Origin: a virus
DNA length: 27,043 nucleotides
Virus record (IMG/VR): IMGVR_UViG_3300042523_000921
Location: 1 to 27,043 of that record
Strand: one strand, 5' to 3'
Below the pieces are notes generated by a model. The model was not told the DNA's origin. It ran no database searches and saw only the letters and a program-made list of their open reading frames with translations. The position numbers and the translations under genes are program-made. Positions 3,276 to 6,619 of the stretch are shown piece by piece. Within the stretch, counting starts at the first letter, position 1. Every line of letters starts with the position of its first letter.

Positions 3276-3764
3276 ATGGCTGATTTACTGATGAAAATGC
3301 CGATTCCTTATGAACCGAAACGTCAAAACCGATTCATTTTAAGGTTTCCATCGAGTTTAGGAATTAATGAGTGGTTTGTAGAATCTGCATCTAGACCGCA
3401 TATCACAATCGCAGCAACGGAAATTCCGTTTTTGAACACCTCAACTTATGTTGCAGGTAGATTCAACTGGCAAACAATTAACGTAGTCTTTAGAGACCCA
3501 ATTGGTCCTTCTGCGTCACAAGCTCTTATGGAGTGGGTACGTTTACATGCGGAATCAGTAACAGGTCGTATGGGATACGCTGCTGGTTATAAAAAAGATA
3601 TTGACCTTGAGATGTTAGACCCAACAGGAGTTGTTGTTGAGAAGTGGATTCTTTATGGAACATTCTTGACAGATGTTAACTTCAACGCATTGGCCTACAA
3701 TACAGATGCTTTAGCGACAATCGCAGCAACTTTAAGAATGGATAGATGTGTGTTAGTTTACTAA
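3276..3764 (+). CDS. Tail tube protein, gp19-like
   Basis: This is the inner tail tube subunit, which forms hexameric rings stacked on the baseplate around the tape measure and inside the sheath. At 162 aa it is almost exactly the length of T4 gp19 (163 aa). The sequence has the family's order: a basic, beta-rich start (KRQNRFILRFP), a central region around TINVVFRDPIGPSASQA, the FLTDVNFNALAYNTDA segment typical of the tube loop and strand, and a final hydrophobic strand ending RMDRCVLVY. It follows the sheath as in T4 (18 then 19), except that a HAD-like gene is inserted between them. The ATG at 3276 has only A/T-rich sequence upstream. A TATTTAT motif lies 32 nt upstream, and a strong terminator follows at 3797-3834, so the gene may be made from its own short transcript, as would suit a high-copy virion protein. 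Confidence 0.93.
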   Translation: MADLLMKMPIPYEPKRQNRFILRFPSSLGINEWFVESASRPHITIAATEIPFLNTSTYVAGRFNWQTINVVFRDPIGPSASQALMEWVRLHAESVTGRMGYAAGYKKDIDLEMLDPTGVVVEKWILYGTFLTDVNFNALAYNTDALATIAATLRMDRCVLVY

Positions 3765-3796: not shown

Positions 3797-3834
3797 TTAA
3801 CCGTAAAGCACATAAACTTTACGGTTAATTTTTT
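3797..3834 (+). terminator. Rho-independent terminator after tail tube gene
   Basis: A perfect 12-bp stem (TTAACCGTAAAG at 3797-3808 with CTTTACGGTTAA at 3817-3828) has an 8-nt loop and is followed directly by six T residues (3829-3834). The start codon of the next gene is only 2 nt beyond the T tract. Confidence 0.9.
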
Positions 3835-3836
3835 AT

Positions 3837-4580
3837 ATGGATAATCAATCAAAAGAATACGGACAGGCAAATTTCTCCCTTCCCCATGACGTGGTACCAT
3901 TACCATCTCAAGGTATATTCTACAAAAACAAAAAGAAAGCAGTCAAAGTCGGTTACTTAACCGCCAATGACGAGAACTTACTAATGGCTGGTGGTGAAGA
4001 TATGACACCGAATCTTTTAAGAACTAAAATTTACGAACCAGACTTACGAGTTGAGGAAATGTTGGAAGGTGATGTTGAAGCTATCTTAATCTTTTTAAGA
4101 AACACAGCATTTGGACCTGAGATGGAGGTTACATTAACTGACCCCACAACAAGAAAATCATTTAAGTCAAACGTATTATTGGACCAATTAACAATTTTAC
4201 AAGGACAAACACCAAATGAAGATGGTACATTTATTACAACTTTACCAAAATCACAAACAACGGTTAAGTTAAAACCGATGACTTATGGTGAAATTTTAGA
4301 AAACCAAAGAATTGCGGATTCATACCCTGTAGGTAGAGTGGCTCCAAAAGTTACATTAAGACTTCAAAAAGAAATTGTTGAAGCAAACGGTTCAACCGAT
4401 AAAGGCGAAATCGCCAAATTTATAGAGCAGATGCCAATTGCTGATTCAAAATTCATAAGAAACTTTATGAGTGAGAATGAGCCAAGATTGGATATGACAA
4501 GAGTAGTAATGACCCCATCAGGAGATAGATTGACAGTTAATGTCGGTTTTGGGGTGGACTTTTTTCGTCCTTTCTTCTGA
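3837..4580 (+). CDS. gp26-like baseplate/tail assembly protein
   Basis: A 247-aa protein resembling the T4 gp26 family of baseplate hub assembly proteins (T4 gp26 is 208 aa). The visible signature is an N-terminal VVPLPSQGIFYKNKKKAVKV (about 19-38), the 'smooth, short' entry motif common in this family. A compact alpha/beta middle follows, with GDVEAILIFLRNTAFGP. The C terminus, FGVDFFRPFF, resembles ends of tail-assembly chaperones of the lambda G type. In T4 the order is 26-51-27-28-29; here this gene is followed by a short overlapping ORF and then the tape-measure candidate, the same arrangement as lambda G-GT-H. The ATG lies 2 nt after a terminator's T tract and has no Shine-Dalgarno sequence. 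Near the 3' end the codons TTT TTT CGT form a possible +1 slippery site leading into the downstream ORF. Assembly role: moderate confidence; exact gp26 orthology: lower. Confidence 0.6.
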   Translation: MDNQSKEYGQANFSLPHDVVPLPSQGIFYKNKKKAVKVGYLTANDENLLMAGGEDMTPNLLRTKIYEPDLRVEEMLEGDVEAILIFLRNTAFGPEMEVTLTDPTTRKSFKSNVLLDQLTILQGQTPNEDGTFITTLPKSQTTVKLKPMTYGEILENQRIADSYPVGRVAPKVTLRLQKEIVEANGSTDKGEIAKFIEQMPIADSKFIRNFMSENEPRLDMTRVVMTPSGDRLTVNVGFGVDFFRPFF

Positions 4581-4719
4581 TTATAGGAAAAGTCAGCTCG
4601 ACGAGTATTACTATTTATCGACACTATTAAACATATCGTATCAGGATTTTCTAATTATGCCACTCTTCATGAGAAAGTATTTATTAGACAAATGGATTGA
4701 AGACAATAAAAAGGACTGA
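4540..4719 (+). CDS. Short overlapping ORF, possible frameshifted tail-chaperone extension
   Basis: A 59-codon ORF in the +1 frame relative to the gp26-like gene, overlapping its last 41 nt and ending at TGA 4717-4719. From residue 14 it reads like a real, mostly helical protein: SDYRKSQLDEYYYLSTLLN, then ISYQDFLIMPLFMRKYLLDK. The 'YYYL...YQDFL.MP...R.YL.DK' style is typical of C-terminal parts of tail assembly chaperones. The first 13 residues (MSVLGWTFFVLSS) arise from the overlap and look non-specific. It can be reached in two ways: initiation at ATG 4540, or a +1 frameshift at TTT TTT CGT (4560-4568). The latter would give a 293-aa fusion of 243 gp26-like residues and 50 from this frame. 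It lies directly upstream of the tape-measure gene, where lambda-like phages place the frameshifted T domain and where T4 places gene 51. Coding status is fairly confident; expression mode is unresolved. Confidence 0.65.
   Translation: MSVLGWTFFVLSSDYRKSQLDEYYYLSTLLNISYQDFLIMPLFMRKYLLDKWIEDNKKD
4560..4569 (+). promoter_or_regulatory. Candidate +1 programmed frameshift site
   Basis: In frame the codons are TTT TTT CGT followed by C. If the Phe-tRNA on the second TTT (4563-4565) slips one base forward it re-pairs on TTC (4564-4566), a better match for a GAA anticodon, and reading continues as GTC CTT TCT into the downstream ORF. The CGT next codon is uncommon here, where Arg is mostly AGA, so a pause is plausible. 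Confidence 0.45.
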
Positions 4720-4734
4720 AAAATCAGTCCTTTT
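4709..4734 (+). terminator. Hairpin terminator before tape-measure gene
   Basis: An 11-bp perfect stem (AAAAGGACTGA at 4709-4719 with TCAGTCCTTTT at 4724-4734) has an AAAA loop. The T-rich right arm serves as the tract. The left arm contains the stop codon of the short ORF, so a ribosome terminating there would interfere with folding. Confidence 0.8.
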
Positions 4735-4765: not shown

Positions 4766-6619
4766 ATGGCAGACGAAACCCAAAAGACCCCAGGACAATA
4801 TGCAGATGACATAAAAAATGCAGCAAGTTTTAATGCTGCTGACTTTATTGATGCGTATGAGAGAGTTGGTTCAGTTGCTCGTGAAGTTAATAATACCTTT
4901 GGTCAGAGTAGAGAACGAATTAATGAAGTTAAAGTTGCTCTTGCCGACGCTCTTCCTGGTATTGTTAGATTAGGAGGAGATTTAGGTGCTGTTGGCGAAA
5001 CTATTGGTCAAATTGCTGAAGCTTCAAGAAGAAACGTTGTCGCCAATACTGAAGATGTTGAAAAGTTATATGCAACTACTAAAGTAATTGGGGGAAGTGT
5101 TAAAGAAATTGCGGATTCGTTTTTAAATGTTGGTGTTGGAATTGAACAAGTTGGTAAACAATTAGAGGATTCAGTTAACTATGTTCGTAGTATAGGTGGA
5201 AACACCAAACAAGTGATGGGAGATGTTAGAAATAACATGGAACAAATGAATCGTTACCAATTTGAGGGAGGAGTTCAAGGTCTAACCAAAATGGCAGCTC
5301 AAGCTTCAATGTTGAGGTTTGATATGGGGGAAACATTTAGACTTGCGGATAAAGTATTAAATCCTGAAGGAGCTATTGAAGTGGCAGCGGCTTTCCAAAG
5401 ATTAGGTGTTAGTGCTGGTGCCCTTGCTGACCCATTCCAATTAATGAACCAATCGATTAATGACCCATCAGGACTTCAAAATAGTTTGGCAGATGTTGCA
5501 AAACAATTTACCTATTTTGACGAAAAAACAAAAACTTTCAAGATTAACCCACAAGGTGTATTAACCCTTAGAGAGATGGAACAACAAACGGGGGTTAGTG
5601 CTAAGGAGATGAGTAAAATGGGGCTTGCAGCCGCAGAATTGGACCAAAGATTGTCGGCAATCAATAATGCAGGACTTACAATTGCTAGTGATGAAGACAA
5701 ACAATATTTGGCAAATATTGCAACAATGCAAGATGGTAAGTACAAAGTAACGTTGGAGGATGGAACTAAAAAAGAATTAGCGGACTTAACACAGCCAGAA
5801 TTTGATAAACTTATTGAAGAACAAAAGAACGGACCTAAAACAATGGAAGAGATTGCAAAATCTCAAATGACCATTAGTGCGGATATTGCAGGTAATGTTT
5901 CCGCAATTAAAGCCGCAGTTCTAGGTGGTGCTGTTACACAAAAAGATGTCTTATCTAGTTCAGAAGCCATTAGAAAACTATCTTCTAGTTTAACTGGCGC
6001 ATTATCTAAAAACTTTAGTTCACCACAAAAAGTTAGAGATACAATGACCGACTCTTTTGACGACGTAAAATCGTTATTTAAAGATATTGCAAATAAAGAT
6101 GTTTCAACAACAGATGCGTTATCAAATTATCTAACTAAAGCCGGAGTTCAATTACAGGATTTAAGTAAGGATGCTCAAGCAAATATTATAAAAACATTAC
6201 AAGAAACACGTTCACAGTTAGGCGATAAAAATGCAATTGATAGAAACGCCAGAAGTTTTATTGACCAAATGTTAGGTGAAACTAAAACTCAAACAACTAA
6301 AAATACTGGTGATGGAAATAGACCAATTTCAAGTTTAATTGAAGGTACAAACGCATCATCTAAAGTTAAAGACGTTGTTAGTAATAACGGAGGACCATTT
6401 GGTGGAGCAAAGAAATCACAAGTAGATTTTGGAGGAGGGATTAAAATTGATGTCAATTTCAATGGAGGAGCGGAAAATTTAACAAATGCTCAAAAAGAAG
6501 AGATTACCAAAATGCTTATTGAAAAAATGAATAGTACGGATATGAAACAATATATGATTGAGGTTAATACACCAAATAACCCAACAAAGGCACCTACTGG
6601 AAAAACAGTAACGAGATAA
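4766..6619 (+). CDS. Probable tail tape measure protein (gp29-like position)
   Basis: A 617-aa, largely helical protein rich in Ala, Gln, Asn, Asp and Lys, without Cys and without an obvious signal peptide or long hydrophobic segment. Repeated heptad-like stretches (for example around SRERINEVKVALADAL and EIADSFLNVGVGIEQVGKQL) suggest extended coiled coil. The C-terminal 100 residues are Gly/Asn/Thr-rich, apart from a small folded-looking piece, GGIKIDVNFNGGAENLTNAQ. The length is close to T4 gp29 (590 aa), the tape measure and hub protein, and the gene follows directly after the chaperone-like pair, the standard location for a tape measure. That would mean it is threaded through the tube lumen, sets tail length and leaves first on infection. 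No sequence motif proves it; placement, size and composition carry the call. A terminator and a TATTTAT motif precede it, suggesting separate transcription. Confidence 0.6.
   Translation: MADETQKTPGQYADDIKNAASFNAADFIDAYERVGSVAREVNNTFGQSRERINEVKVALADALPGIVRLGGDLGAVGETIGQIAEASRRNVVANTEDVEKLYATTKVIGGSVKEIADSFLNVGVGIEQVGKQLEDSVNYVRSIGGNTKQVMGDVRNNMEQMNRYQFEGGVQGLTKMAAQASMLRFDMGETFRLADKVLNPEGAIEVAAAFQRLGVSAGALADPFQLMNQSINDPSGLQNSLADVAKQFTYFDEKTKTFKINPQGVLTLREMEQQTGVSAKEMSKMGLAAAELDQRLSAINNAGLTIASDEDKQYLANIATMQDGKYKVTLEDGTKKELADLTQPEFDKLIEEQKNGPKTMEEIAKSQMTISADIAGNVSAIKAAVLGGAVTQKDVLSSSEAIRKLSSSLTGALSKNFSSPQKVRDTMTDSFDDVKSLFKDIANKDVSTTDALSNYLTKAGVQLQDLSKDAQANIIKTLQETRSQLGDKNAIDRNARSFIDQMLGETKTQTTKNTGDGNRPISSLIEGTNASSKVKDVVSNNGGPFGGAKKSQVDFGGGIKIDVNFNGGAENLTNAQKEEITKMLIEKMNSTDMKQYMIEVNTPNNPTKAPTGKTVTR

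Follow-up and report, generated by a model that had tools for sequence, protein, structure and literature searches.

The locus described here raises the question of how a reading frame that overlaps the 3' end of a phage tail gene is expressed, i.e. by a start codon of its own or by ribosomes that change frame while translating the upstream gene. The locus is contained in a window of 27,043 nucleotides, the whole stretch of DNA that was analysed (IMG/VR virus record IMGVR_UViG_3300042523_000921, positions 1 to 27,043). A first-pass annotation had described a 59-codon ORF (4540-4719) in the +1 frame relative to a gp26-like ORF and had proposed that the two are joined by a programmed +1 frameshift at TTT TTT CGT C. 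The frame relation of the two ORFs was confirmed, the string was found in frame inside the overlap (GAC TTT TTT CGT CCT TTC TTC TGA, 4557-4580), and translation that moves into the +1 frame at the second TTT reproduced the predicted fusion length of 293 aa (Table 1). Based on the comparative sequence data presented below, programmed +1 frameshifting very probably makes a short and a long form of the tail assembly chaperone from this gene.

Table 1. Positions of the genes, the proposed slip site and the RNA hairpin in the window.
Feature	Position	Strand	Evidence or remark
Tail tube protein gene (upstream context)	3276..3764	+	phrog_4542 tail tube, E=6.8e-24
TAC-N gene (gp26-like), zero frame	3837..4580	+	247 aa; stop TGA 4578-4580
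RNA hairpin 5' of the slip site	4512..4555	+	Covariation, folding energy
Hairpin strands	4512-4517/4550-4555 (CCCC/GGGG core); 4527-4535/4541-4549; loop 4536-4540		
TCAGGAG, internal loop of the hairpin	4518..4524	+	Near-invariant in 36 representatives
ATG of the 59-codon ORF	4540..4542	+	Not conserved; judged not to be the start of the extension
Slip site TTT TTT CGT C (proposed)	4560..4569	+	P-site UUU 4563-4565; A-site CGU 4566-4568; C 4566 proposed to be skipped
TAC-C extension	4567..4719	+	+1 frame; 50 codons post-slip; stop TGA 4717-4719
Next downstream gene, tape measure position in relatives	4766..6619	+	Weak family matches

The gp26-like protein matches PF12322 (T4_baseplate; E=2.4e-6, 27.9 bits, above the curated cut-off of 24.5) and the baseplate hub family phrog_150 (E=2.3e-11). 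As in tail assembly chaperone pairs of the lambda gpG/gpGT type, a single gene follows the tail tube gene and has a C-terminal extension in another frame at its 3' end, but here the gene belongs to the PF12322 family, is found in a T4-type phage and has a UUU_CGY site with a conserved 5' hairpin. Two statements on the surroundings of the gene fared less well. The 617-aa ORF at 4766 had been named as a tape-measure candidate; it gave only weak family matches below the cut-off, which leave this identity unconfirmed, and no real match to the tested part of the tape measure of Flavobacterium phage immuto. The layout had also been equated with the 26-51-29 order of T4, where gene 26 in fact lies on the opposite strand from 51-27-28-29.

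Relatives of the window (group A) were collected as the best 80 of 377 by similarity and, with a divergent member as the query, the best 80 of 513. Both sets together with the window and its copy (L081) make up 162 loci, in which some contigs occur twice; these contain 80 distinct full regions and 43 representatives at 97%, or 82 distinct regions when truncated ones are kept. The sequence TTT TTT CG[T/C] CCT TTC TTC T[G/A]A is present in 162 of the 162 loci, and the +1 extension past the stop is 139 nt long in 152 loci, 133 nt long in 8 and cut by the contig end in 2. In 29 representatives of the first set, the extension has a pN/pS ratio of 0.166 when read in +1, versus 1.71 and 0.91 in the other two frames, and the gp26 part has a ratio of 0.185. 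These comparative data show that the extension behaves as a coding sequence, because it is of full length in 160 of 160 uncut loci and signs of purifying selection are seen only in the +1 frame. In one sequence alone, 46 open codons in the +1 frame beyond the stop are not rare, with a chance of approximately 2% under a base-composition model. The -1 frame, in which the extension of a canonical -1 frameshift would lie, closes 50 nt after the stop in the window, and the extension under selection is the +1 one. We considered and rejected a misassembled T run, the same frame relation being found in 160 uncut loci of the 162 and in isolates. In a predicted model of the fusion protein, which is poor as a whole (pLDDT 62.7), the added domain at residues 251-290 has block pLDDT values of 82-89, with three helices from 247 to 290. 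A fold search of this model against PDB gave 27 matches with E values up to 10, none of them below 0.001, and a search of PDB by sequence gave no match.

The extension could also be made as a separate small protein, initiated at ATG 4540 or coupled to the termination of gp26 translation. An ATG is indeed present in the open +1 stretch before the site in 137 of the 162 loci and 69 of the 82 distinct regions, window included, and AGGAG is located 15 bases before the ATG in the window. Against this reading stand the members without a start codon: in 13 of the 82 distinct group A regions (25 of 162 by locus), the open +1 stretch contains no ATG, in 7 of the 82 (15 of the 162 loci) it contains none of ATG, GTG and TTG, and in several loci TAG follows directly after the ATG in the +1 frame. 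A similar picture was obtained with 96 distinct 72-nt stretches, taken from every stored locus with the site, 26 of which are without ATG and 9 without ATG, GTG or TTG. In addition, the seven codons between ATG 4540 and the slip site carry no sign of coding in the +1 frame (pN 0.127 and pS 0, in a short stretch), and among 125 ATG starts called crudely in a long related contig, just 3 are preceded by SD-like 4-mers. Separate initiation would be excluded only through the members without a start codon, the window itself having ATG 4540. The first-pass annotation had suggested that a conserved TTT-CGT and +1 frame combined with a variable ATG would support frameshifting, and this is the pattern found, TTT-CGT/C and the frame being kept in all 162 loci and the ATG being variable. 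Taking these points together with those from more distant phages (see below), we regard a separately initiated extension as very improbable.

Codon usage at the site was analysed in a synonymous scan of a viral collection, which was designed to avoid a biased fetch: all codons for Asp-Phe-Phe-Arg(CGN)-Pro-Phe-Phe-stop (TAA/TGA) followed by TTA were searched, yielding at least 119 stretches, many of them on contigs that are also in the 162-locus set. Among the matches listed, the second Phe codon is TTT in 119 of 119 stretches (89 of 89 distinct ones), TTC being allowed. In these at least 119 stretches, the first Phe codon is TTT in 115 and TTC in 4, the Arg codon is CGT in 72, CGC in 44, CGG in 2 and CGA in 1, the Pro codon is CCT in 117 and CCA in 2, and the extension is 133-145 nt long in 117 and cut in 2. 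Likewise, Phe 242 and 243 are encoded by TTT in 29 of 29 representatives, whereas eight other conserved Phe codons are a mixture of TTT and TTC, the TTC count ranging from 7 to 20 among up to 29 representatives. Because TTT is constant here and usage is mixed at the other Phe codons, the second TTT is kept for something beyond its amino acid. The 96 stretches mentioned above were not used as evidence on this point because the second TTT had been required by the filter. The near-constant CCT TTC TTC after the site is what would be expected from double coding.

The site is also uncommon in its surroundings. TTT TTT CGT C occurs twice in the window, versus 0.19 expected occurrences, and the slip site is the sole in-frame TTT CGN among the 17 window ORFs taken as genes (8,758 codons); in 180 kb of a related contig there are 13 in-frame TTT CGN, including one TTT TTT CGN at this gene. 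CGT and CGC are rare Arg codons in this phage, together accounting for 27 of the 288 Arg codons in the window, 231 of which are AGA. A tRNA search in 180 kb of the long related contig detected none for Arg or Phe, and one tRNA-Met only.

A 15-bp RNA hairpin is located upstream of the site and ends seven bases before the slip codon. None of the 96 distinct stretches lacks its CCCC/GGGG core, and Gly239 is encoded by GGG in 29 of 29 representatives, compared with 0 to 5 of up to 29 at other conserved Gly codons. The fold in the window has an energy of -16.5 kcal/mol (z -2.8), and RNAalifold gave -11.07 kcal/mol for the hairpin region, versus a median of 0 for 48-nt windows along the gene and -1.03 for the best non-overlapping one. 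Covariation was assessed in 36 representatives differing in at least 5 of 48 positions and compared with shuffles. The proportion of hairpin cells that are paired is 91.7% (85.0 in shuffles), the number of cells with a change on both sides is 34 (11.7 in shuffles) and the covariation score is 0.264 (0.157 in shuffles), with 0 of 500 shuffles as high in each case. The number of further pair types is 21 (16.8 in shuffles; 3 of 500) and that of pairs with both-side change is 6 (4.0 in shuffles; 15 of 500 as high). When the partner strand was slid by one to three bases, the covariation score was at most 0.079. A narrower earlier set of 43 rows (34 distinct) contained one pair with changes on both sides. 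The mean folding energy is -15.09, versus -13.11 (sd 0.28) when synonymous codons were shuffled among the sequences (0 of 300), and 36 of 36 sequences fold better than the mean of their random synonymous recodings (mean z -2.94, range -4.54 to -1.73). As judged from this synonymous covariation, the hairpin is conserved. In the TCAGGAG motif of its internal loop, T10, C11, G13, G14, A15 and G16 are invariant and A12 is present in at least 90% of the 36 representatives.

Counted back from the start of the P-site codon, GGGGU in the 3' strand of the hairpin (4551-4555) occupies bases 8 to 12 and GGGG bases 9 to 12. If the Shine-Dalgarno helix is located there in the ribosome, the hairpin would stand in the place of that helix. 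No 3' structure was found in group A, windows starting at the site or at the stop giving -1.1 and 0.0 kcal/mol, and a search of Rfam gave two matches, far below the gathering scores. We also observed that TCAGGAGA in the internal loop of the hairpin (4518-4525) is the complement of TCTTCTGA, which is located shortly after the slip site (4573-4580). No covariation of this pairing was seen by eye among the 96 distinct stretches, and it may represent a pseudoknot around the site, chance or a by-product of coding constraint.

More distant relatives were sampled with Microcystis phage Mel-JY01 as the query (group B; best 80 of at least 600 relatives), and a third set was designated group C; L125 and L154, which run off the contig, and the partial L188 and L189 were dropped before both groups were counted. 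In group B, the P codon is TTT in 67 of 67 distinct sequences, versus 75% elsewhere in those genes; it is followed by TGG in 65 and TAC in 2, and then by CCT in all 67. The +1 extension is 187 to 325 nt long in 65 of these sequences and cut in 2, with a pN/pS ratio of 0.218 (440 pairs). A separately initiated extension is difficult to reconcile with this group, in which 24 of the 67 distinct sequences lack ATG, GTG and TTG in the open stretch and 13 of the 67 are startless even if CTG, ATT, ATC and ATA are counted. The hairpin and the rare codon are not general: no common upstream hairpin was found in group B in an ungapped alignment anchored on the site, and the A-site codon is TGG or TAC, not CGN. 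With model R1, matches were obtained to the window and, in 180 kb of one long contig, to the homologous site (E values of 4e-20 and 1e-20); the best other match had an E value of 0.041, and several weak matches end on group B slip sites, where they probably arise through the letters of the slip site.

Among the 14 distinct ends in group C, TTC TTT TGG CCT is found in 9, TTT TTT TGG CCT in 2 and TTT CTA in L082. In L179 and L185, the TTT has been lost, and the extension lies in the -1 frame and has an ATG of its own downstream of the stop; on the basis of their sequences, these two loci can be regarded as a natural control for the TTT slip codon. They also count in favour of separate initiation, as does Pseudomonas phage Cygsa01, which has no TTT slip codon and whose extension, by annotation, has its own ATG beyond the stop.

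Sixteen distant records were compared: 8 carry a +1 extension close to the same Phe pair (LR756508, Mel-JY01, Listeria phage LIS04, Streptococcus phage GXN1, Bacillus phage SP-15, Pseudomonas phage QdP_Psa3, Flavobacterium phage immuto and Rhodothermus phage RM378), 4 have a -1 extension (LR756511, Stenotrophomonas phage RAS14, Synechococcus phage S-RIM8 and Vibrio phage Bakedbeans), 2 have an extension with its own ATG by annotation (Synechococcus phage S-SCSM1 and Cygsa01) and 2 have no extension (Aeromonas phage phiAS4 and, by annotation, T4). An ATG, GTG or TTG is present in the open stretch of 7 of the 8 +1 records, a further point for separate initiation; RM378 has none. Re-pairing would be possible at UUU_UGG (Mel-JY01 and RM378), UUU_CGU (GXN1), UUU_CCC (QdP_Psa3), UUU_CAC (SP-15) and UUU_CUA (LR756508). 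LIS04 (UUU UUU AGU) offers poor re-pairing and would need a slip at the first codon, and immuto (UUU CUU UGG) would need a different slip codon, i.e. a slip on CUU. In the deposited annotations, part of the extension is listed as a separate short gene in SP-15, immuto and Mel-JY01, and LIS04 has no such entry. To judge from these sequences, the shift seems to have switched direction within the family. RAS14 (L193) and LR756511 (L086) are large-genome relatives with the -1 extension at a Phe run. The baseplate hub gene of S-SCSM1 (L194) retains T_TTT_TTC at its end, but a separate start is annotated for the downstream domain, which occupies the +1 frame; S-RIM8 differs in this respect.

The same frame might be reached by two further routes. 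RNA polymerase could slip on the T run and produce mRNA with one base less or two more, which ribosomes would read unshifted. The run comprises six T in the window and mostly seven in group B, in line with such slippage, but the same junction is found with runs of three or four T, in TTCTTTTGG (9 of 14 distinct group C sequences), TTTCTTTGG of immuto and TTCTTTCGT of GXN1, and TTC precedes TTT in 4 of 96 distinct group A stretches; transcriptional slippage is thus assigned a very low probability. A -2 shift would also enter this frame, adding one residue at the junction. P-site tRNA-Phe on six T could re-pair two bases back, and phage Mu uses -2, as stated in a report on PA-X (PMC3498833). In members with TTC TTT, however, the tRNA would land on TCT and mismatch after slipping back two bases, so that -2 fits badly and there is very little chance that it operates here.

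The preferred reading is a one-base forward slip. In the course of events that we infer from sequence, which takes in the shift itself, its +1 rather than -2 direction, its rate, the roles of the hairpin and the rare codon and the chaperone function, most ribosomes would read the zero frame to its stop and yield TAC-N. A fraction would move one base forward while UUU 4563-4565 in the P site is occupied by tRNA-Phe; the tRNA would re-pair on UUC with the rare Arg codon CGU waiting in the A site, and reading would continue as GUC CUU up to 4719 to yield TAC-NC (293 aa). The upstream hairpin probably promotes the forward slip, and, if lambda gpG/gpGT is taken as the analogue, the long form would gain a small helical domain. 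Alternatively, slippage could take place on the first TTT while the A site is empty, and the protein would be identical.

Chaperone genes of T4-like phages were reportedly identified by Vladimirov, Gautam and Davidson in 2022. Bacterial release factor 2 is made by a one-base forward slip with a G-rich element close upstream of the site. The present site differs from that of release factor 2 in having no stop in the A site (the codon is CGT, with the stop four codons on) and in that its GGGG is a strand of a covarying hairpin. Tsh of Listeria phages and of SPP1 is a major tail protein rather than a chaperone. For Tsh of these phages, a +1 shift in the phage tail gene has been shown by protein sequencing (PMC3498833). 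The authors of the PA-X study proposed P-site slippage from UUU to UUC, to which a rare codon in the A site perhaps contributes, and predicted a wider class of UUU_C sites (PMC3498833). This re-pairing by a one-base forward slip, which the first-pass annotation had put forward, fits the site described here, where P-site UUU re-pairing to UUC and CGN in the A site are shared with PA-X (PMC3498833). The match to the PA-X motif that had been drawn holds for UUU_CGY and fails for the UCC of the E site, the codon there being TTT or TTC in the loci counted; the hairpin 5' of the site and the unrelated gene and host are further differences.

Chaperone frameshifts, forward ones included, are already known, and the PRFect training set (SEA-PHAGES) contains 2368 backward and 350 forward sites (PMC10885494). 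Poly-T -1 signals are likewise known in TAC-N genes of T4-like phages (PMC12846349). In Vandenendeviridae, S-RIM8 and Bakedbeans, the junction of the -1 chaperone frameshift is found, as here, in the T-rich Phe stretch with which TAC-N ends, but the signal is GTTTTT or T_TTT_TTC with -1 rather than TTT TTT CGY with +1. The titles and abstract starts of the open-access literature, outside of which most subscription papers fall, named no +1 chaperone frameshift in T4-type phages and no upstream hairpin for bacterial +1 shifting, and this is weak evidence that a UUU_CGY site preceded by a hairpin is new for T4-type phages.

In T4, gp26 and gp51 both match PF12322 (8.8e-64 and 3.9e-52, respectively); gp26 ends in EFFELL, and gp51 runs 48 residues past its PF12322 match. 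The two T4 genes are on opposite strands, in contrast to the one gene found here. PF12322 genes number one each in four long group A contigs, two in T4 and one in S-RIM8, although the absence of a second copy is weak evidence, as the model missed Mel-JY01 and immuto. A profile of the fusion protein gave a weak alignment with T4 gp51, covering an N-terminal stretch only, and no phrog_634 hit was obtained. T4 may be read as having the short and the long form on two genes, with one gene and a shift in the present phage. T4 gp26 and gp51 may be the split form of one frameshifted gene, which would account for the presence of two related proteins in T4.

No SD-like sequence was seen by eye close before 16 window genes, and a pattern search of genome contigs for a host gave 18 matches, none of them a relative. 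The data suggest a Bacteroidota host, because SD-like starts are few and the phage is related to Flavobacterium and Rhodothermus phages. The candidate +1 site would sit in a lineage with hardly any SD starts. It is conceivable, although we hold this only tentatively and consider it somewhat doubtful, that in hosts with hardly any SD starts the hairpin refolds behind the ribosome at the place of the SD helix and drives +1 shifting on UUU while a rare CGY codon occupies the A site, as a counterpart of the release factor 2 frameshift in which a hairpin takes over from the SD sequence as the driver, and that this is possibly the ancestral mode of gp26/gp51 expression. As a candidate +1 frameshift at sense codons, the locus has three parts that are separately testable, namely the slip codon, the rare codon in the A site and the covarying hairpin.

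Two hairpins resembling intrinsic terminators (3797-3828 and 4709-4734 of the window) flank the chaperone gene, the second overlapping the last codons and the stop of the extension. They could separate the expression of the chaperone from that of the tube and the tape measure.
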